DNA of 39,566 nucleotides, taken from positions 1 to 39,566 of IMG/VR virus record IMGVR_UViG_3300028925_011785, one strand, 5' to 3'. A program made the position numbers and the translations under genes. The notes below the pieces were generated by a model, which was not told where the DNA came from, ran no database searches, and was given only the letters and a program-made list of their open reading frames with translations. This document shows positions 25,443 to 39,566 of this stretch, piece by piece (the first letter of the stretch is position 1; each line of letters begins with the position of its first letter). The DNA is from a virus.

Positions 25443-25801
25443 ACTGGCTGCGCCGCCTTTCTGCCTGGGTTTGGGGCATAGACATACGCGCAGCCGACGA
25501 CGAGGCTCGCAAGATCCGGCGACAAGTAAAAATCTATGATCTTGCCGCGAATGTTGACGAGCTAACCCGCGCGATCGATCTTGTCGCCGCCGCCATGCCG
25601 AACGGCGGCGGATTACTCTTCGACGATATCGAGATCCGCAAGGCGATGCTGCGCGGCATCATCGACGGCAGATCCGCGATTATTGCAGTCGATTGGGAAT
25701 ATCATCCGACGCATTGCGTCGTGATGACGACGCAGCCTAACGGGCGGGCGTTGCTTACCATTCATGAACGAAGCGAATTTTTGCAGAAGGGAAGCCAATG
25801 A
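25439..25801 (+). CDS. Unrecognised 120-residue protein upstream of the clamp gene
   Basis: Starts ATG 25439 (ATGA). The N-terminus MNWLRRLSAWVWGIDI is amphipathic and could bind membrane. A charged helical region (ADDEARKIRRQVKIYDLAANVDE) and an alpha/beta part follow. It shares an overlap with the clamp gene (stop over ATG), so the two are co-translated. Confidence 0.6.
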   Translation: MNWLRRLSAWVWGIDIRAADDEARKIRRQVKIYDLAANVDELTRAIDLVAAAMPNGGGLLFDDIEIRKAMLRGIIDGRSAIIAVDWEYHPTHCVVMTTQPNGRALLTIHERSEFLQKGSQ

Positions 25802-27033
25802 AGATCGAGACTAAGCCATTTGCCAAGGCGCTGGAGATCGCCGCCGACGTCATCGAGCGCCGCAACACGGTCCCGATCTTGGGATCCGCCAAGGTCGAAC
25901 ATCGCGCCGAGAATGATCGGCTGATCGTGACGGGAACGGATCTCGACATGATCGTCCAGGCGAGCGCGCCTTACCGCGGCGCCGCCTTCTCCCCCTTCAC
26001 CGTCGCCGGTCCCAAGGCGATGGCGCGCCTCTTCCGCGCGGGCGGCGATGATCTGGAGCTTGACGATCAGGGCGGGAAGATCTCGTTCGGATCCGGCCCC
26101 ATGACCGGATCCTTGGCGACGCTCCCGGCCGACGACTTCCCGATCCTGGGCTACAGCACCGAAGGCATGTTCCAGACGTCGCTGGGCGCGGAGCAGATCG
26201 ACATGATCCTTCGCGTCGCGGGCGCGGTATCGACCGAGGAGACACGCTATTATCTGAACGGTGTATATCTCCATCACGTGCAAGACTGGACGTGGAAGGC
26301 GGTCGCGACCGACGGGCATCGCCTTTACGTCGGGACGCTGGAGCTTCCCGACTGGCAGGGCGAGGGGATCGGCGCACACGGCGGAGGGCATGCCAGCGGC
26401 GGCGTCATCATCCCGCGGCGCTTTCTCAATCTGCTCCGCCTTCACCGGCCGCGCATGAACCTTGCCGGCGAGATCCAGATCTTCGCCGGGCGCGCCGGGC
26501 CTGTCCCGAACGAGGTCAAGGATCTCGCGCCGGAGGCGCGGACCGCCGCGCAGGGTGGCGCTTGCCGCTTCGGGATCCGCTTCTTCAACGGCGATACGGA
26601 CGTCCAGATCGTCACGAAGCTGATCGACGGCACCTTCCCCGACTATACGCGCGTCATCCCGCAGGAAGCGCCCGACGATAAGCGGATCATGTTTAAGGCC
26701 GCGGACATGCGCCGCGCGATCGACGCAATCACCGCTGGCGCGTCCGAGCGGACGCGCGCGATAAAGCTCACCTTCGACCCCAAGGGAAAGTGCGCGGTAA
26801 GCTGCAAATGGGTGGACCTGGGCTTCGAAGGGAAGATCGAGATCCCGGCCACCGTGCGCGATCAGAAGAACACGTTCGAAGTCGGCTATAATTCGAGCTA
26901 CCTTCGCCAGATCTGTGACGTCGCGGGCGGCGAGGATCTCTCGATCACGCTGCACGACAGCAACGCGCCGGGGACGCTCGCGTCGCCGGGCTCGACCGAC
27001 TTCCTAACCGTCCTTATGCCGATGCGAGTATGA
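25798..27033 (+). CDS. dnaN: DNA polymerase III beta-type sliding clamp
   Basis: A 411-residue protein (bacterial clamps have about 366-375), with motifs in DnaN order: RRNTVPILGSAKVE (21-34), EETRYYLNGVYLH (148-160), VATDGHRLYVG (169-179), IDGTFPDYTRVIP (277-289) and C-terminal LTVLMPMRV. The clamp would encircle DNA as a dimer and tether polymerase. The extra length is partly a loop around 184-202 (Gly/His-rich) and an insert near 232-260. No phage DNA polymerase is visible, so it would serve host polymerase III or displace the host clamp. Confidence 0.9.
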   Translation: MKIETKPFAKALEIAADVIERRNTVPILGSAKVEHRAENDRLIVTGTDLDMIVQASAPYRGAAFSPFTVAGPKAMARLFRAGGDDLELDDQGGKISFGSGPMTGSLATLPADDFPILGYSTEGMFQTSLGAEQIDMILRVAGAVSTEETRYYLNGVYLHHVQDWTWKAVATDGHRLYVGTLELPDWQGEGIGAHGGGHASGGVIIPRRFLNLLRLHRPRMNLAGEIQIFAGRAGPVPNEVKDLAPEARTAAQGGACRFGIRFFNGDTDVQIVTKLIDGTFPDYTRVIPQEAPDDKRIMFKAADMRRAIDAITAGASERTRAIKLTFDPKGKCAVSCKWVDLGFEGKIEIPATVRDQKNTFEVGYNSSYLRQICDVAGGEDLSITLHDSNAPGTLASPGSTDFLTVLMPMRV

Positions 27034-27556: not shown

Positions 27557-27695
27557 CGCGCGGGATCTCCACGCGCCCGAGGCGCTGCGCCTGCTCGCGC
27601 GCAAGGTGCGCGGCGTCGATCCGCGCCGCGCCGATGAGCTGGAGCGCACGGCAAAGCAATTCGAAACGTGGCGGCAGGCGTATATTCGGCGATGA
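27519..27695 (+). CDS. Unrecognised 58-residue helical protein
   Basis: ATG 27519 has GGAAGGAAGG upstream. The product is nearly all helical and charged (LHAPEALRLLARKVRGVDP, then ADELERTAKQFETW). It is coupled to the RusA gene by an ATGA overlap. Confidence 0.6.
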   Translation: MATPMNPPKIELDARDLHAPEALRLLARKVRGVDPRRADELERTAKQFETWRQAYIRR

Positions 27696-28327
27696 TCGAA
27701 TATTTCCCCCGCGGGATCCGGCGCAATGGGATCGACATTGTCTTCGCGACCTCCGTCGCGCAGCTCCCTTGCGTGATCGAGATCGAGGGCAAGGGCTTCG
27801 TCGCCGAGAGCGCGGAGAGCTGGGACGACGCCTTCGTCCAGTCGAAGGAAGAGGCCGAGCGCTGGACCTTCGCGGGCGCCATCATCATGACCGATGCGGA
27901 GCGCGAGACGGCGATCCTCCATCCGGTCGATTATTTCACGATCGATCTTCCCCTCCCGCCGTCCACGAACGCGCTCTTTGTCGAAGCGGGCGGCAGGAAG
28001 CGCGGCGAAGGGCCGCAGCGCGTGAAGACACGTGCCTATAAGCAATGGCTCCACGACGCGGGCTTCCTGCTCAATGTCGGCGCGCAGCGGGCAAAGGTCG
28101 CGCTCGACACCAAGGATCGCGCCTTCTCGACGAATTGGGGGGTCTATCTGCGCTGTGATCTCGATCACAACGCCGACATAACGAACCGGATCAAGGCGAC
28201 GGAGGATCTTTTCGTCGCCCGCAAGCTCACGATCGGGGACCAATGGGTTGACCGATGCACCGTCGAGCGCGACCGGACCGTCCCGCGCGGCATGGTCCGC
28301 GCCATCATCTACAGCATGGGAGGCTGA
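27692..28327 (+). CDS. RusA-type Holliday junction resolvase with N-terminal extension
   Basis: A 211-residue protein. The RusA fold starts near 83 with IDLPLPPSTNALF. The acidic/Lys core is at 156-172 (DLDHNADITNRIKATED), followed by VARKLTIGDQWVDRCTVER, the last strand-helix of the family. RusA cuts four-way junctions and clears branched DNA before packaging. RusA itself is about 120 residues; the first ~80 here form an extra domain I do not recognise. The start overlaps the upstream stop. Confidence 0.75.
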   Translation: MIEYFPRGIRRNGIDIVFATSVAQLPCVIEIEGKGFVAESAESWDDAFVQSKEEAERWTFAGAIIMTDAERETAILHPVDYFTIDLPLPPSTNALFVEAGGRKRGEGPQRVKTRAYKQWLHDAGFLLNVGAQRAKVALDTKDRAFSTNWGVYLRCDLDHNADITNRIKATEDLFVARKLTIGDQWVDRCTVERDRTVPRGMVRAIIYSMGG

Positions 28328-28328
28328 C

Positions 28329-28637
28329 ATGGCACGGCAGACGATCGAGAACCGCCTCGAAGGGACTATGACATTCGGGCTTCACCTTATTTTCGCGCGA
28401 GACGGCGGAGCGCGCATGACGCGCACCACGCCCCAGCTCGCCCGCGGCGAACGGTCGATGTATCTCGACATCAAGATCCCGACAAAGATCTTCGAGACGC
28501 CTTCGCTCCGCGCAGCAATCACCATCCCCGAGCCGGACGCAAGGCCGGAGATCGATATCGAGGCAGCGCGGACCGCGCTCGCCGAGGCATTGGACTGCGA
28601 TATCGTTATTACCGTTCAACCAAGTGAAGGAGTGTAA
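28329..28637 (+). CDS. Unrecognised 102-residue protein
   Basis: ATG 28329 has GGGAGG upstream and follows the RusA stop by one base. The sequence has beta-strands (MTFGLHLIFARDGG, YLDIKIPTKIF) and ends in a helical alanine-rich part. No family recognised. It immediately precedes the Tad2-like gene and may belong to that cluster. Confidence 0.6.
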   Translation: MARQTIENRLEGTMTFGLHLIFARDGGARMTRTTPQLARGERSMYLDIKIPTKIFETPSLRAAITIPEPDARPEIDIEAARTALAEALDCDIVITVQPSEGV

Positions 28638-28638
28638 A

Positions 28639-29211
28639 ATGGAACGCTATATCGGAACGAAGACGATCCTCGCCAAGCCCATGCGGCTCGGCGAATATAA
28701 CGCCTATCGCGGTTGGAACATGCCGGCGAACGAGGATCCGGCAAAGCCAGGCTTCCTCGTCGAATATACCGACGGCGAAGGCGGCAACCATCCGGACCAT
28801 GACGGTTATATCTCTTGGTCCCCGGAAGCCGTGTTCCTGGCGGCATATCGCGCCGACGGCAACCTTACCTTCGGCCATGCCCTCGACATGCTCAAGAAGG
28901 GCGCCACGGTCGCGCGAAGCGGCTGGAACGGGAAGGGCATGTTCCTCTATCTCAATGCCGGCAGCATCGACGCCAAGCCGCCCGAGATGGAACGCGGGGC
29001 GCTGATCGACGGGATCGACCCGACCCTCTTCGACAAGGGCGCCACCGGAACGGCGCCGCGCCTTCCAAACATCAACATGAAGGCGGCGAGCGGCGCGACC
29101 GTGACGGGCTGGCTTGCCAGTCAGACCGACATGCTCGCCGAGGACTGGAGCGTCGTCAGCATGCCGGTTGCTCCGGCCGAGCCCGCCGCCGAAGAAGCGC
29201 CGGCCGACTAA
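28639..29211 (+). CDS. Tad2-like (DUF2829) protein with N-terminal domain, predicted anti-Thoeris
   Basis: A 190-residue protein with a strong ribosome site (GAAGGAG). Residues 77-174 match the DUF2829/Tad2 domain: FGHALDMLKKGATVARSGWNG, KGMFLYLNAG, LPNINMKAASG and WLASQTDMLAEDWSVV. Tad2 proteins sequester the cyclic ADP-ribose signal made by Thoeris. Residues 1-72 form a second domain (YIGTKTILAKPMRLGEYNAY, then DHDGYISWSPEAVF) that I know attached to other phage DUF2829 proteins but not by function. A disordered insert around 105-145 and an acidic tail follow. Confidence 0.7.
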   Translation: MERYIGTKTILAKPMRLGEYNAYRGWNMPANEDPAKPGFLVEYTDGEGGNHPDHDGYISWSPEAVFLAAYRADGNLTFGHALDMLKKGATVARSGWNGKGMFLYLNAGSIDAKPPEMERGALIDGIDPTLFDKGATGTAPRLPNINMKAASGATVTGWLASQTDMLAEDWSVVSMPVAPAEPAAEEAPAD

Positions 29212-29423
29212 TGGCGATCGACCCGCCCGATCCGGATCCGGAACTCGACCGGCGCCGCGAGCTGATCGCCCATTGCGAGAAGCGTTGCGACCGGGCGCGG
29301 GCTAAGCTGACCGCGGCGCAGCAAGAGGTAGAGGACGCGGACAGCGCGCTCGCCTACGCTCTTGCTCGCCGCGATCAGTGGATTGCCGATCATCCGGATC
29401 CGCAACCCTCATTGCCTTTATAA
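29211..29423 (+). CDS. Unrecognised 70-residue coiled-coil protein between two predicted anti-defence genes
   Basis: Starts TAATG right at the Tad2-like stop. Residues 15-62 form a long charged helix (LIAHCEKRCDRARAKLTAAQ, QEVEDADSALAYALARRDQ) with a heptad look. No family recognised. Its position suggests a role in the same counter-defence set, but it could be unrelated. Confidence 0.55.
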   Translation: MAIDPPDPDPELDRRRELIAHCEKRCDRARAKLTAAQQEVEDADSALAYALARRDQWIADHPDPQPSLPL

Positions 29424-29433
29424 GGGAAAGTTT

Positions 29434-29673
29434 ATGTCCGACCCCATCCACCCGGCCCCGGCCGAATTTAGCGAAGCGCAGCTCGACGAGGATCCGATCC
29501 TTCGCTTCTTCCACTATGCCCACCTACCGGAAGCGCTCCAGGCGCGCAGCAAGCCATTCTGCGATCTCGCGCGGACCGTCGTCGAGACGACGCCCCGCAA
29601 CGCCGAGCGCTCGGTCGCGCTGCGCAAGCTGCTCGAAGCCAAGGACGCGGGCGTCCGCGCGCACGTCGGCTGA
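29434..29673 (+). CDS. Acb2/Tad1-like helical-hairpin protein, predicted nucleotide-signal sponge
   Basis: A 79-residue protein that reads RFFHYAHLPEALQARSKPF, then CDLARTVVETTPRNAERSVA and LRKLLEAKDAGVRA. Phage proteins of this pattern have been placed with the Acb2/Tad1 hairpin family, whose members bind cyclic oligonucleotides (CBASS signals) and cyclic ADP-ribose (Thoeris signals) as hexamers. I assign it from remembered family pattern, not a search. AAGGGAAAG lies ahead of ATG 29434. Start follows a short gap after the coiled-coil gene. Confidence 0.6.
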   Translation: MSDPIHPAPAEFSEAQLDEDPILRFFHYAHLPEALQARSKPFCDLARTVVETTPRNAERSVALRKLLEAKDAGVRAHVG

Positions 29674-29674
29674 C

Positions 29675-29917
29675 ATGGCAGAGGCAACCGTCAGCGACGA
29701 GCAGCTCCGCCTGTTCGTCGAGCGCATCGAGCGCCCTCTCGAAGAGAAGAAAGGGATCCTGGACGACGTGCGCGACGTCTATCTCGAAGCGAAGTCGCAG
29801 GGATATGATCCGAAGATCATGCGCCAGATCGTGAAGCTGCGCTCCATGCCGGTCCACGATCGAAAGGAAATGGAGGCCGTCCTCGACGTCTATAAATCGG
29901 CGCTTGGCATCGAGTAG
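29675..29917 (+). CDS. gapR: GapR-like (DUF2312) DNA-binding protein
   Basis: An 80-residue protein that reads EQLRLFVERIERPLEEKKGI, then DDVRDVYLEAKSQGYDPKIM and RQIVKLRSM with a DVYKSALG end. This is the DUF2312/GapR pattern; Caulobacter GapR (89 residues) encloses overtwisted DNA ahead of forks and stimulates topoisomerases. Pro-21 replaces a helix residue in the first helix. It is last in the unit, directly after the Acb2/Tad1-like gene (one base between), without a clear ribosome site. Confidence 0.8.
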   Translation: MAEATVSDEQLRLFVERIERPLEEKKGILDDVRDVYLEAKSQGYDPKIMRQIVKLRSMPVHDRKEMEAVLDVYKSALGIE

Positions 29918-29971: not shown

Positions 29972-30000
29972 AAGGGCGGGGAGGCTTTCTCCCCGCCCTT
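29972..30000. terminator. Bidirectional terminator between convergent units
   Basis: A perfect 12-bp GC-rich stem (29972-29983 with 29989-30000, 5-base loop) is followed on the plus strand by AAATTTTA. It sits between the GapR-like gene (plus) and the last lysis gene (minus, ending 30006) and can end both transcripts. Confidence 0.8.
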
Positions 30001-30005
30001 AAATT

Positions 30006-30362
30006 TTACCGATCAGGCAGCGCCGACCAATAATCGCGCCACCATTGCGCATTGTTCGAACAGACGAACAGCCGCCCCTCCAGCTCGACGACATGCGCCG
30101 CGACGACGCCGTTGCGCGCGTTGATCGAGCGGACATAGGCGTCATGCTCACCCTTCGCCTGCTCGACCGTCTGGACCTTGGTCCAGTCGATCGCATAGGC
30201 AGAAGGAAGAGCGGGGCGCGCGGGGACGCCTTCGCAGATCAGGCGCGCGGGATTGGCGAGATCAGGGCGAGACGGGACGGCTATCCGCGTCGGCTGGCAG
30301 GCTCCGGCCGTCAGCAGGAAACAGGACGTCAAAAGGATCGCCGCCTTCACTGATTTTCGCAT
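30006..30362 (-). CDS. Candidate outer-membrane spanin (Rz1-like lipoprotein)
   Basis: A 118-residue protein with a classic signal peptide (basic MRKSVKA, then ILLTSCFLLTAGAC). Cys-22 could be lipidated, though the lipobox is weak because Ala stands at -3. It overlaps the preceding candidate inner spanin by about 100 bases in another frame, a typical Rz/Rz1 layout. The rest is soluble and longer than most Rz1 proteins. Confidence 0.6.
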   Translation of the reverse strand: MRKSVKAAILLTSCFLLTAGACQPTRIAVPSRPDLANPARLICEGVPARPALPSAYAIDWTKVQTVEQAKGEHDAYVRSINARNGVVAAHVVELEGRLFVCSNNAQWWRDYWSALPDR

Positions 30363-34399: not shown

Positions 34400-37300
34400 C
34401 TATTCCTGATCATCTTGCGGGCCTTTGGCAACCCCGAGCAGCACGTCGCCGACGCCGTCCGGATTTTGTGATCCGTCCGCCACATCGGCCAGATATTGCG
34501 CCGTCTGCCCGACCTGTCCCGTCGGCAGGCCGGTGAAATAGCCGATCGGCGTGATCGTGTTTTTAATCCAGCGTTCCGAGGGCTCTTCGCCCTTTGCGAC
34601 CTTGATCGCATCCTCGACCGGCTTCTTCACTTCGGAAAACATGCGATAGAAGGGCGCCTCGACTGCCCCGGTAAACTTGCCCTCGATCTCGCGCTGCAAT
34701 CCGGCCGCGACGTCGCGCAGCACCGGGACGCCGCTCCACAGCCCGAAGAAGAAGCGCGACACCATCCAGCTTGCCCAGCCCTCGACGTCGCGATCCTCCT
34801 CGTCCGGAACGTCGCCGGTCAGCAGCGCGGCCGCCATCGGCCCCACCATCATGATCCAAAAAACATTGGTCATCACGCGCCGCCAGTCGCGACGCTGGAA
34901 CGCGACATTCGTCTCGCGCTGCTTGTTATAGAGGATCGAGAAATAGGTATAGAACGTCGTGAGCTGGCGATATCCCTCGTTGCTGTCCTGGAACGCGGCG
35001 AGATCCTTCGCGCGCCCAGCTGCCTGGCTCTTGCGGACGCTCTTGTCTGCGAACGCAATCGCGTCCGCGACATTCATCCCCATGCTTTCGGTCGCCTTGT
35101 AATAAGCCCCGACCCATGTCGGCATCGCGACGAGATAGACGTCGATCATGCCGATCCCCCAAAAGGCTCCGGCGCGGATCTTGTCGAGCCCGATCGCGTC
35201 GCTTGCCTGGCTTATCCCGTCCAGGATCTTGTGCGTCCGGCCCGGACGCCGGCCGCGCAGCTTGCGCGAGGCGTCGCGGTAAAAGGTCCGAACGTCGCGA
35301 TCGAACGCCTCCGCGCGCCCAGCCATCTCGGGCGACATGTCGAAGACCCAGCTCCGGATCTTGCCCATGCCGAGCGCCGTCTCTTTCATCCCGCGCGCCA
35401 TCCACGCCGGACCGATCTCCGCCGCGCTATTCGCCCAGCCGCCGATCTGCGCCGCCATAGTGGTAAAGCGCAGCCCGAGCCCGACCATTGTCGCATTAAC
35501 GCGCACTTGCCGGAAGACACGCTCGATCCCCGAGAGCATGCCGGTATCTAGCGCCGCATCATTAACCTGGCGCTGGAGCCAGCCCTTGATCTGCCCATGA
35601 TATTCCGGCCCGATATGCTGATTGATCAGCTTGCGGATCTTCGGATGACCGGCGAATTTCAGCACGTCTCGCGCGTAGCGCCCATAGGCGATACGCGTCG
35701 TCACCCGGTTGATGTGATTGAAGAGAACGCGCTCAAGGCTGAAATGCACCGGGAGCGCCGCTTCCGTGCGCGTGATCGTGTGACCCTTTGGCGTCGAGAT
35801 CGTCCGGCCGATCCCGCCGAACAGCTTCGCCGCATCATCGTCGGCATTATCCGCGGCGATCTGCGATCGGTTGGGATCATAGACCATCGGATAATAGCCG
35901 CCCTGGAACGTGCCATATTTCGTCTCGACGAGACGCCCCTCGATCTTCTCCGGCGCGACCCCTGAGATATCGCGCTCGCTGCGCGCTATATCCGGCCAGA
36001 GGCTATTGATCTGGCGCCATACCGCCTCGACGAAGAGCCAGTCCTCGCGCGTCAATTCGCGATCAAGGACGGCCATCACTCGATCTTCCGTCCAGCCATG
36101 CCGAACCCGCAGCCCTTCGGGGAGCGCCATCGTCTCGCCGATCAGCATCTTCTCAAGGTTCGACGTGTTGCCGGTATTGAGCGCGACCGCGAGCAGCTCG
36201 GCGCGCGTGAACGTCGTCGCGACGGTCGCCTTCGTTTCAGGGTTGACCGTCACGAACTCCGGCACCGTGACCCGCTCCGCAAGGCGCTTGAGCTGCGCCT
36301 TCGGCATGTCGAGATAGAGCTTCGCGAGCGGATCCACGACTTGCCTTGTCAGCCGTTCCTTTTCGTTCGCAGCTTGGGTGGCGCCCTTCACCAGCACTTC
36401 ATTGAAGACGCCGTTCGGATCCCCGCCGTCCAACTGATCGGCGATGAACTCCATCTTGACGAGCGAGCTATCGACGTCGCGGATCAAGCTCCGCTCCTCG
36501 TTGCGCGCGTCAGAGAACTTGCGCATGGGAAGCGCCAGAGCCGCCGCTTCGGCGCGCTGGACCATGTCCTCGAGCCGTTGCTCTTCCTGCCCGATCAGCA
36601 GCTCCATTTTTTGTCGGCCGAGATGCGCAAGGCTTTGGACCGTATCGTCGATCGCGACGATCTCTTCGAAGGTAAGGCGCGTGAAATGCTTGTTCCCGGC
36701 CATCGTGAGACGCTCGGGAACGAAGACTTCGAAGCCCTTCTCCGCCTCGCGCTTCGCCCATTCGGTGAAGCGCTCGCGCTCGCGGATCTCGTCGCGCGAC
36801 CGCGGGCGAAGATCGTAACTCTCCAGCACTTCATGGATCCGGTCCAGATAGTCCTGATCCATGCCCTTGAGGTTGCGCGTCCGCGCGAAGCGATCGAGCC
36901 GGCGCGCGATCACATCGACCTGATCCTTCGCGTTTTTCGCCGCGCGCCACAGCTCGCTTGCGATCATCTCGCGTTGCTTCGCCTTCAACGCGACGACGTT
37001 ATCGCCGTTGAGATAGGAGCGCTCCGCCTCGCGGCTCGCTTTCGCCTTCGCCTTGCGGTGGCGCTCGACCGCCGCGCCGGACGCCTGATCGACGATCCGG
37101 CCCTCGCGCACGACGCGCTCCGCATAGGAGCGGATCACGTCGAGCGGCGTCGGCGGGCCATCGGCTTCTTTCGGATCGATTGCGCGGGCGAGCTGGCGGA
37201 TCTCGCTCGCCAGCCGCTCGGATCCGGCGTCGGTCTGGATGATCTCCAGCGCCTCCTCCTCGATCGACCCGTCGTCGAAGATATCGCCGTGACGCTCCGC

Positions 37301-39566
37301 CATGCGGCGCTCCGTCTCCAGATCCACCGCCTCTTGCTGGACGTTGCGCTTATCGTTCGCGGCGATCAGCGCGCGCCGCCGCTCCTCGACGCCGATCAAC
37401 GCCTCCAGCATCGTCTTGCCGTCGGGAAAGCCAGCATGCTCGGCGACGATATCCGGATTGACGCCATTCGCGACGACAGTCCGCGCGTTCGGCGCAGACT
37501 TCGGCAAAAGCGGAACCGCGTCGCGGCCAATGCGCGCAATGACCCCGTCGAGATCCAGCGGCATATGATCGACGCCCACGCCGCGGATCAGCCGCATCGC
37601 CTGGAACTCCGGCCGCGCCCCGACTTCGTCCGCGACTTCGGCGCGGACCTTTGCCTCCTCTTCCTGATAGCGCGCCGTGCGCGCGCGGCGGACGCGCTCC
37701 ATCGTGCGGTAAAGCAGCGCGTCGAAGGCTTCCGTCCGGCTTTGCTCGACGAGCCCCATATAAGCCAGCCGCTCTTGACCCGTCATCCCTTCGGGGACGA
37801 CGGTTTCGAAGAGCGCCCGCTCGTCGCTTTCGTGGATCGCCCAGCTTATCGCCGTATCCGTCGCGAGCATCCGGTCCATGACGCGGCGGACGTCATCGTC
37901 GATGTTGCTCCGCAAGTTTCGGACAACCTTGTAGATCCGCAAGAGCCATGCGCGGAACGAAGCGAAGGCGGTTTGCAGGCTGCGCGACGGCGCCTTGCCC
38001 TCCATGAAATAGCGCTCCATCCCGCGCGCCCACAGCTCATGCGCTTCGGTCGGGATCGGCTCGCCGTCGTTGACATCGATCCCCTCGCGCTTGAACCATG
38101 CCTTCACCGCCTCCCAATCGCCGAACAGCTTGCGCGCCTCCGGGCTCGCGTCCTCGCGGCCGACGGTCGAAAGCGCATCGGAGCGCAACTCCTCCAGCCA
38201 CAAATGCCCGCCTTCATGGAGCAGCGTCGAGAGATCCCGGTTTTGAAACAGCACGATCTGCGCGCGATTGTCGGCGAGGAAATCAATCCGGCCGCGAGCG
38301 CCGCCCTGCCCTTGGCTCTGATCGAAGCCGAAGGCTGCATCGCCTTCCGCTTCCCACCGCGCGATCGCCGCGTCGATCTCGTCGCGCGTCGCGCTATGGA
38401 TATCGACCCCCAGCCGATCGAGCAGCTCGCGCAGATCGTCGGCCGCGGCAAGGATCGCGTTATTAGCCTCCATCACCGGATCCAGCTCGGCCTCCGTCGG
38501 ATAAACCGGATCCCCGCGCAGCTCTTGCCCGATCGCGTCGAGAAGATCGTTCGTCGTCGCGCGGCCCTGCATATCACCGAAGAAGCCTTGCGACTGGAGG
38601 CGTTGCGCCCAGGCGTCGAGACTATAGTCGTTCCCGGATCCAGACCCCGGCAGCATCGACGCTTGCCCGTCCGCAGACTGATCGCGGATCAGGCTCTTGC
38701 GCTTCCGGCCGAAGATCCCGCCCGACACGACGCTATCGCCGCCCATCGACAGGATATCGCCGCCGTCGTCATTGACCCCGCCACCCTCGACGATCGTCTC
38801 GATCAAACTCTTCGCGCGCGGCGTCATCGGCTGCGCGCCCGTTCGCACCGCATTGATCAGCACGTCCAGACCATCGCCTTTGCGATAGGGTTTCAGCCGA
38901 TCCGGAAGATCCTGGCGGATCCCCGCGAAACTTTGCTGGAACAGATCGAAGGCGTTGCGCCCGTCGCCGAGCCGCTCCGCGCGCGTCGCATAGCGGTCCG
39001 CCCACAGATCCGCATAGGAGCGCGCTGCGTTGATCGAGAAGCCGGCCTCGCGCGCCTGACTAAGAACAGCGTCGAAGACCTTTTCCCGCGGCGCCGCCGC
39101 TTCGCGCTCCGCCGCAGCCTGCTCGCGCACCGTATCGCCGATCTTTGCGACGACGTCCGCATATTCGCTTTCGAACGCCTCGACTTCCTTTTGCGAGATC
39201 CCACCCGGCGACACCCGCACCGACGGCTTGATCTGCTCCCATACCGGCGTTCCCGCGAGATGCGCGGCGACAGCCGACATGGGGATAACCACGTCGCCGC
39301 CCGACGCGATCCCCGCCTCGACCTGTTTCCAGAAATCGCCGGTCAGGCCCGACATGATCCCGTCGTCTTCCTGCCCCATGTCCCAGCCGTTGGACTGATA
39401 CAGCTCGCGGATAGCCTCCGCCGGGATGAACATGTTTTCGAGCGGCGTCCCTTGGCTGATCCCGTCGATGAACTCTTCGAAGAGGCGCGGATCACGCTGG
39501 CGCGTCTTGCTCTCCGCCGCATCGCCCATGATCTTGTCGATCACGGCGATACCCTGCCGCGCCTGG
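34400..39566 (-). CDS. Giant polyvalent internal virion protein, 5' end beyond the right edge
   Basis: The frame is open for 1721 codons and enters from the right edge with no start. The 1714 residues counted from GTG 39544 begin with the polyvalent-type pattern AAESKTRQRDPRLFEEFIDG. A zincin-like HEGGH at 443-447 (STLLHEGGHLWLEEL) follows, then long coiled-coil regions (about 560-1250). Near the C-terminus are hydrophobic segments such as FWIMMVGPMAAALLTG and the closing GLPTGQVGQTAQYLADVADG found in such proteins. By T7 analogy (gp16 place) it is ejected with DNA and would act in the cell envelope. It may carry the left-edge transglycosylase as N-terminus. Confidence 0.75.
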   Translation of the reverse strand, partial: QARQGIAVIDKIMGDAAESKTRQRDPRLFEEFIDGISQGTPLENMFIPAEAIRELYQSNGWDMGQEDDGIMSGLTGDFWKQVEAGIASGGDVVIPMSAVAAHLAGTPVWEQIKPSVRVSPGGISQKEVEAFESEYADVVAKIGDTVREQAAAEREAAAPREKVFDAVLSQAREAGFSINAARSYADLWADRYATRAERLGDGRNAFDLFQQSFAGIRQDLPDRLKPYRKGDGLDVLINAVRTGAQPMTPRAKSLIETIVEGGGVNDDGGDILSMGGDSVVSGGIFGRKRKSLIRDQSADGQASMLPGSGSGNDYSLDAWAQRLQSQGFFGDMQGRATTNDLLDAIGQELRGDPVYPTEAELDPVMEANNAILAAADDLRELLDRLGVDIHSATRDEIDAAIARWEAEGDAAFGFDQSQGQGGARGRIDFLADNRAQIVLFQNRDLSTLLHEGGHLWLEELRSDALSTVGREDASPEARKLFGDWEAVKAWFKREGIDVNDGEPIPTEAHELWARGMERYFMEGKAPSRSLQTAFASFRAWLLRIYKVVRNLRSNIDDDVRRVMDRMLATDTAISWAIHESDERALFETVVPEGMTGQERLAYMGLVEQSRTEAFDALLYRTMERVRRARTARYQEEEAKVRAEVADEVGARPEFQAMRLIRGVGVDHMPLDLDGVIARIGRDAVPLLPKSAPNARTVVANGVNPDIVAEHAGFPDGKTMLEALIGVEERRRALIAANDKRNVQQEAVDLETERRMAERHGDIFDDGSIEEEALEIIQTDAGSERLASEIRQLARAIDPKEADGPPTPLDVIRSYAERVVREGRIVDQASGAAVERHRKAKAKASREAERSYLNGDNVVALKAKQREMIASELWRAAKNAKDQVDVIARRLDRFARTRNLKGMDQDYLDRIHEVLESYDLRPRSRDEIRERERFTEWAKREAEKGFEVFVPERLTMAGNKHFTRLTFEEIVAIDDTVQSLAHLGRQKMELLIGQEEQRLEDMVQRAEAAALALPMRKFSDARNEERSLIRDVDSSLVKMEFIADQLDGGDPNGVFNEVLVKGATQAANEKERLTRQVVDPLAKLYLDMPKAQLKRLAERVTVPEFVTVNPETKATVATTFTRAELLAVALNTGNTSNLEKMLIGETMALPEGLRVRHGWTEDRVMAVLDRELTREDWLFVEAVWRQINSLWPDIARSERDISGVAPEKIEGRLVETKYGTFQGGYYPMVYDPNRSQIAADNADDDAAKLFGGIGRTISTPKGHTITRTEAALPVHFSLERVLFNHINRVTTRIAYGRYARDVLKFAGHPKIRKLINQHIGPEYHGQIKGWLQRQVNDAALDTGMLSGIERVFRQVRVNATMVGLGLRFTTMAAQIGGWANSAAEIGPAWMARGMKETALGMGKIRSWVFDMSPEMAGRAEAFDRDVRTFYRDASRKLRGRRPGRTHKILDGISQASDAIGLDKIRAGAFWGIGMIDVYLVAMPTWVGAYYKATESMGMNVADAIAFADKSVRKSQAAGRAKDLAAFQDSNEGYRQLTTFYTYFSILYNKQRETNVAFQRRDWRRVMTNVFWIMMVGPMAAALLTGDVPDEEDRDVEGWASWMVSRFFFGLWSGVPVLRDVAAGLQREIEGKFTGAVEAPFYRMFSEVKKPVEDAIKVAKGEEPSERWIKNTITPIGYFTGLPTGQVGQTAQYLADVADGSQNPDGVGDVLLGVAKGPQDDQE

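Follow-up and report, generated by a model that had tools for sequence, protein, structure and literature searches.

A two-domain Tad2 relative and a putative Acb2/Tad1-related hairpin protein in one gene row of a 39.6-kb virus sequence

Tad2 proteins of the long-insertion type can bind both Thoeris and CBASS signals: the insertion is held responsible for cyclic dinucleotides, and pockets separate from it for gcADPR (review, PMC12043709). SPO1 Tad2 (Gp34.65) was reported not to bind 3'3'-cGAMP (PMC11722364). Acb2 (p26 of 8H2J/8IXZ, T4 Vs.4; PF24729) folds as short helices followed by two long antiparallel helices (PMC12043709), and Tad1 shares the PF24729 hairpin domain class. A literature search of incomplete coverage found no published description of a pairing of Tad2 and hairpin genes, and no characterised member of the two-domain Tad2 proteins of PHROG 872.

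We analysed a window of 39,566 nucleotides, the whole of virus record IMGVR_UViG_3300028925_011785, which encodes terminase, helicase, primase and tail proteins. An earlier note, made from the sequence alone, had proposed an anti-CBASS/anti-Thoeris cluster at 28639–29673 with Tad2-like and Acb2/Tad1-like genes side by side. These genes belong to a tight plus-strand row that starts at a DnaN-like clamp, continues with small genes and a RusA-like resolvase and ends in a group of five (28329–29917), all on the same strand and spaced by 0–10 nt (Table 1). The stop of the Tad2 gene shares bases with the start of the 70-aa gene (TAATG), and the GapR-like gene, whose 106-bit score to PF10073 is above the curated threshold (cut-off 22.6), starts 1 nt past the 79-aa gene. 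The likely terminator sits between this rightward row and the leftward genes beyond, although a simple terminator scanner did not list the inverted repeat. Among the leftward frames, one of 1714 aa (34400–39544, − strand) matches PHROG 9880, a family of 2231 positions, across its C-terminal 1300 residues; since only 22 bases separate the start of the frame from the end of the window, the gene is possibly truncated.

Table 1. Features of the gene row and its surroundings (window coordinates)
Feature	Position	Strand	Basis
DnaN-like sliding clamp / polymerase processivity factor, upstream in row	25798-27033	+	PHROG 947 E 2e-45
RusA-like Holliday junction resolvase, upstream in row	27692-28327	+	PHROG 34 E 8e-6
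102-aa orphan gene, 5' of Tad2	28329-28637	+	no family match
Two-domain Tad2 protein, 190 aa	28639-29211	+	PF11195, PHROG 872, fold
70-aa predicted coiled-coil orphan, between Tad2 and 79-aa genes	29211-29423	+	sequence
79-aa helical hairpin protein	29434-29673	+	PHROG 1761
80-aa GapR-like (DUF2312) DNA-binding protein, last gene of row	29675-29917	+	PF10073 E 7e-31
Likely terminator, GC-rich inverted repeat then TTAAATTTT	~29974-30012		direct sequence reading

The Tad2 and 79-aa genes are real rather than chance frames, as their family matches show together with the codon differences between the window's 79-aa gene and its relative in locus L001 (16, 10 and 50 at positions 1, 2 and 3), which are dominated by the third position. 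The group of genes that the earlier note described is confirmed, and both of the Tad2 motifs it quoted lie within the 190-aa protein, but the gene it placed before the pair begins at 28329 and falls outside the range it gave. Among named genomes, the 79-aa gene finds its nearest relatives on contigs of Sphingobium, Novosphingobium and Sphingopyxis, which makes a sphingomonad host likely. We read the locus, with a probability of about 60%, as an accessory cassette that would combine a Tad2 signal sponge with a 79-aa, Acb2/Tad1-related binder of small signals whose pocket has been rebuilt. It would be a small anti-defence-type cassette in the rightward row of a sphingomonad-type tailed phage or prophage. 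Direct support for this reading comes from Tad2 homology and fold, a hairpin model, remote PF24729 homology and the recurrence of Tad2 as a neighbour.

Sequence and predicted structure identify the product of 28639–29211 as a clear Tad2 relative. Its Tad2 domain spans residues 75–174, with a long insertion at about aa 107–138, and matches PF11195 at residues 77–173 (E 9e-22, 77.8 bits against a cut-off of 25), while PHROG 872 covers the protein over its full length (E 6e-51). The nearest solved relatives are SptTad2 (E 2e-18) and HgmTad2/AcrIIA7 (E 1e-17), to which it is 42% identical over about 95 residues with the same fold (Z 12–14); the motifs GWNGKGMF and GWLASQTDMLAEDW and the long insertion between strands are common to all three. 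Both core motifs, GWNGKGM and W.ASQTD.LAEDW, are present, and W96, G98, W158, D164, D169 and W170 are invariant in a 69-sequence alignment; the two motifs singled out in the earlier note include such residues. The AlphaFold (AF2) model built from these 69 sequences has a pLDDT of 88.5. In a Foldseek search of the PDB its top 24 rows were all Tad2 (Z 11–14; E 3e-7 to HgmTad2), with only Tad2 structures reaching significant E-values, and VIA gave Z 13.6 and 2.4 Å over 97 residues against SptTad2. The proposal of a Tad2-like domain was thus borne out at the level of both sequence and predicted fold.

Compared with the solved relatives, the protein is extended at the N-terminus by an additional domain of about 72 aa and at the C-terminus by a short tail. 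Residues 1–72 (28639–28854) form a separate beta-rich domain ahead of the Tad2 domain, which places it outside the solved Tad2 structures, since those chains are mostly 88–104 residues long. Matches to this domain came from 122 phage records, among them those of phage N4, IME10 and Vibrio phages; it had no Pfam family match, and its fold matches were weak (CarD and Tudor-type barrels, Z 4–5). The same full-length architecture is found in the two-domain Tad2 proteins of PHROG 872 from phage N4, IME10 and Vibrio phages (annotated 'DUF2829'), a group that, by sequence, the window protein newly joins.

The long insertion bears on which signals this Tad2 protein may capture. Its length is about that in SptTad2 and HgmTad2, whereas SPO1 Tad2, which has the same domain and is about 36–47% identical over the aligned core, lacks the long insertion and 12–14 of those residues. 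The insertion is not conserved in sequence and is modelled at low confidence (pLDDT 55–60). Because the long insertion is present and has a published role, the best reading of the single Tad2 protein, by analogy, is as a dual Thoeris/CBASS sponge. By homology it would form a tetramer and trap the TIR-made signals gcADPR or His-ADPR, and the insertion would probably also capture cyclic dinucleotides; such capture would keep Thoeris or CBASS effectors off. Among the solved relatives, those ranked second and third bear the deposited names 'Inhibitor of Type II CRISPR-Cas system' and 'AcrIIA7', and some phage records call relatives 'anti-CRISPR protein', which could mean that the protein is an AcrIIA7-type Cas9 inhibitor instead of, or besides, a signal sponge. 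We consider this very unlikely: such names follow homology, and HgmTad2, which is AcrIIA7, has been solved with cADPR and cGG bound (8kbj, 8kbk), so the two functions would in any case be compatible.

The 79-aa protein falls squarely within PHROG 1761 (E 2e-26), a family matched in 315 phage records, in 212 loci of the fetched set and in 186 loci of the genome collection spanning several phyla. Its AF2 model (pLDDT 92.7) has helices at residues 14–19, 21–26, 33–52 and 57–77, and in this prediction, with its short helices at the N-terminus ahead of a long antiparallel pair, it would resemble Acb2. The model is all-helical from residue 14 and has no strand in residues 1–13, so that, as modelled, it would lack the N-terminal antiparallel beta-sheet domain of Tad1. 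Across PHROG 1761, H30, L31, K65, L66, E68 and R75 are conserved at 100% and R64, K70, D71, E58 and A46 at about 98%, and the family has an invariant motif of its own, LRKLLEAKDAxVRA, that distinguishes it from Acb2. The family domain is C-terminal in an Ochrobactrum phage protein named 'anti-TRAP domain-containing' (L395:765-1133), which carries an N-terminal extension from which that name may derive. In three further loci (L028, L030, L048) it follows unrelated N-terminal sequence in longer open frames, and the domain may also exist as a fused module.

Direct searches with the 79-aa protein itself against Pfam, NCBIfam and PDB sequences gave nothing useful, and the curated PF24729 model did not match it. 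Over 57 PHROG 1761 members, PF24729 tied as the most frequent Pfam match, in four of the 57 and below cut-off, the best member reaching E 0.019 and 15.6 bits (cut-off 27). When the model was searched against PDB folds, the rows listed contained unrelated designed bundles alongside further helical proteins but no solved Acb2/Tad1. The viral fold search (BFVD) returned the protein's own relatives first and then 'Acb2/Tad1 hairpin' proteins, in rows 9–13 and in many lower ones. The hairpin that the earlier note anticipated is thus predicted by a confident model; a fold like that of solved Acb2 has viral fold matches in its favour but did not come up among the rows listed in the PDB searches.

Comparison of profiles pointed to a remote relationship through one subfamily. 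With the 79-aa family represented by a narrow profile, the commonest PF24729 group gave no signal, and a broader profile matched weakly (score 14.0, P 0.03, reached by 6 of 400 column shuffles) a set composed of one dominant PF24729 group plus T4 Vs.4 and p26. A bridging, YH-type PF24729 subfamily of seven sequences was collected from proteins of Lactococcus phage 1706 and Mycobacterium phage Saintus, both of which exceed the PF24729 cut-off; six of the seven members were scored singly, all over that cut-off. Against this subfamily the 79-aa family scored 28.2 (78% probability, P 1.8e-5, to be read as about 1e-4 because the subfamily was picked after the fold search and some eight comparisons were made). 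The subfamily itself matched the Acb2/T4 set at 97%.

A helical hairpin finds matches among many unrelated folds, and the likeness could reflect a generic amphipathic hairpin, with adjacency to Tad2 arising from shuffled accessory genes that share spots; the weak score against the set dominated by another subfamily and the rarity of the Tad2/79-aa pair fit such an account. It appears unlikely to us, because none of 1000 shuffles reached the score against the bridging subfamily (maximum 20.4; z about 9), the unrelated helical GapR family used as a control stayed at noise level, and both profile alignments fall on the same region of the second helix. We conclude that a remote relationship of the 79-aa family to the Acb2/Tad1 hairpin superfamily is probable but not certain. 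The Acb2/Tad1-like assignment of the earlier note accordingly stands in part: it holds as a remote, superfamily-level relation backed by the hairpin model, and the protein remains below the PF24729 cut-off.

The ligand positions of Acb2 are mostly replaced in the 79-aa protein. Y11 and K26 of Acb2, which we take to be ligand residues, correspond in the joint alignment, a remote one, to the invariant H30 (also His in the bridging subfamily) and to Ser39, respectively. In the same alignment, Acb2 R67 falls on Ala57, a position that is Pro or Ala across the 79-aa family, and the conserved Thr of the second helix of the Acb2 family falls on Arg64. Conservation of the ligand-binding residues, which the earlier note had put forward as a check, was therefore not observed at the K26, R67 and Thr positions. 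Because the family has a strict residue set of its own and changed pocket positions, its ligand and contacts should differ from those of Acb2 even if it is a sponge, a function that is putative. Under the preferred reading, the 79-aa protein would most likely form multimers that bind a small nucleotide-like signal, using a pocket other than that of Acb2/Tad1. We infer that assembly into tetramers or hexamers, ligand binding and any anti-defence effect would belong to the working cassette. The cover against two defences that the earlier note drew from the Tad2/79-aa pair is likewise a prediction, and a Tad2 protein of the long-insertion type may bind both kinds of signal by itself.

Tad2 and 79-aa family genes recur as neighbours. 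Tad2 was present in 8 of the 212 loci of the 79-aa family, the window included, always close by and on the same strand. Tad2 comes first in two loci (L045, L308) and the hairpin gene in five (L237, L306, L319, L342, L378); in the window one gene lies between them. ATGA-type overlaps join the two genes in L045, L237 and L308. When neighbours were clustered by BLAST over 184 distinct loci, the Tad2 cluster was adjacent in six of its six occurrences, the most of any neighbour family, and the product of the adjacency chances puts six touching pairs at about 4e-6. Co-occurrence over whole records was low, at 1 of 48 other records, with PHROG 1761 in none of 47 Tad2 records. True PF24729 genes were found in five Tad2 records, lying within about 250 nt of Tad2 in four loci (L052, L097, L106, L127), and a PF24729 gene also stands beside Tad2 in a Paracoccus genome (L391). 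The sequences carrying these five PF24729–Tad2 neighbours are phages or prophages. The side-by-side placement of Tad2 and hairpin genes is thus a recurrent arrangement but not a fixed one, so that of the proposed cluster the neighbouring of the two genes holds, while a common or conserved unit does not.

The wider neighbourhood of the 79-aa family bears on whether it does something other than capture signals. Tad2 could be a working sponge while the 79-aa protein has no more than the hairpin scaffold in common with sponges and is a protein- or DNA-binding accessory factor, perhaps a partner of GapR-like proteins or a factor of the packaging region. Terminase, portal and lysis genes are often found near the family, which also adjoins GapR-like genes in the near-identical loci L005 and L006 and in L007 and L309; its invariant residues are very strict from cyanobacteria to planctomycetes, unlike those of a fast-evolving arms-race gene, and the known pocket positions are altered. 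The neighbourhood otherwise varies widely, however: any one family lies near it in at most 8 of the 184 loci, a pattern that fits mobile accessory genes, and the most consistently adjacent neighbour is Tad2. We regard this accessory role as a serious possibility, if a somewhat doubtful one. Given the mixed neighbours and the several terminase types among them, we do not favour a function linked to a single virion or packaging module.

The 102-aa gene had no Pfam, PHROG, NCBIfam or phage match. For the 70-aa gene, viral contigs, fetched loci and phage records yielded no relative, and its only Pfam matches were weak and coiled-coil-like; the codon-position composition of both is consistent with coding. 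The earlier note had asked whether the 70-aa gene accompanies Tad2 and the hairpin in related phages, and the gene was not found elsewhere in those three collections. Position alone argues for these two genes as anti-defence factors. Conservation of the whole five-gene unit was rejected, as both are orphans and record-level co-occurrence is low.

A bolder form of the two-binder reading is that PHROG 1761 constitutes a further branch of Acb2/Tad1 sponges acting on a new signal, in a recurrent two-sponge cassette with two-domain Tad2 proteins; we offer this tentatively and think it rather unlikely. PHROG 1761 is a widespread, uncharacterised family, and its tie to Acb2/Tad1 together with its adjacency to Tad2 suggests that its members may bind nucleotide alarm signals. 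Two-domain Tad2 proteins, those of phage N4 and its relatives included, also carry an unexplained extra domain. If the 79-aa protein does bind a signal, its changed pocket would indicate a signal or a binding mode beyond those of Acb2 and Tad1.
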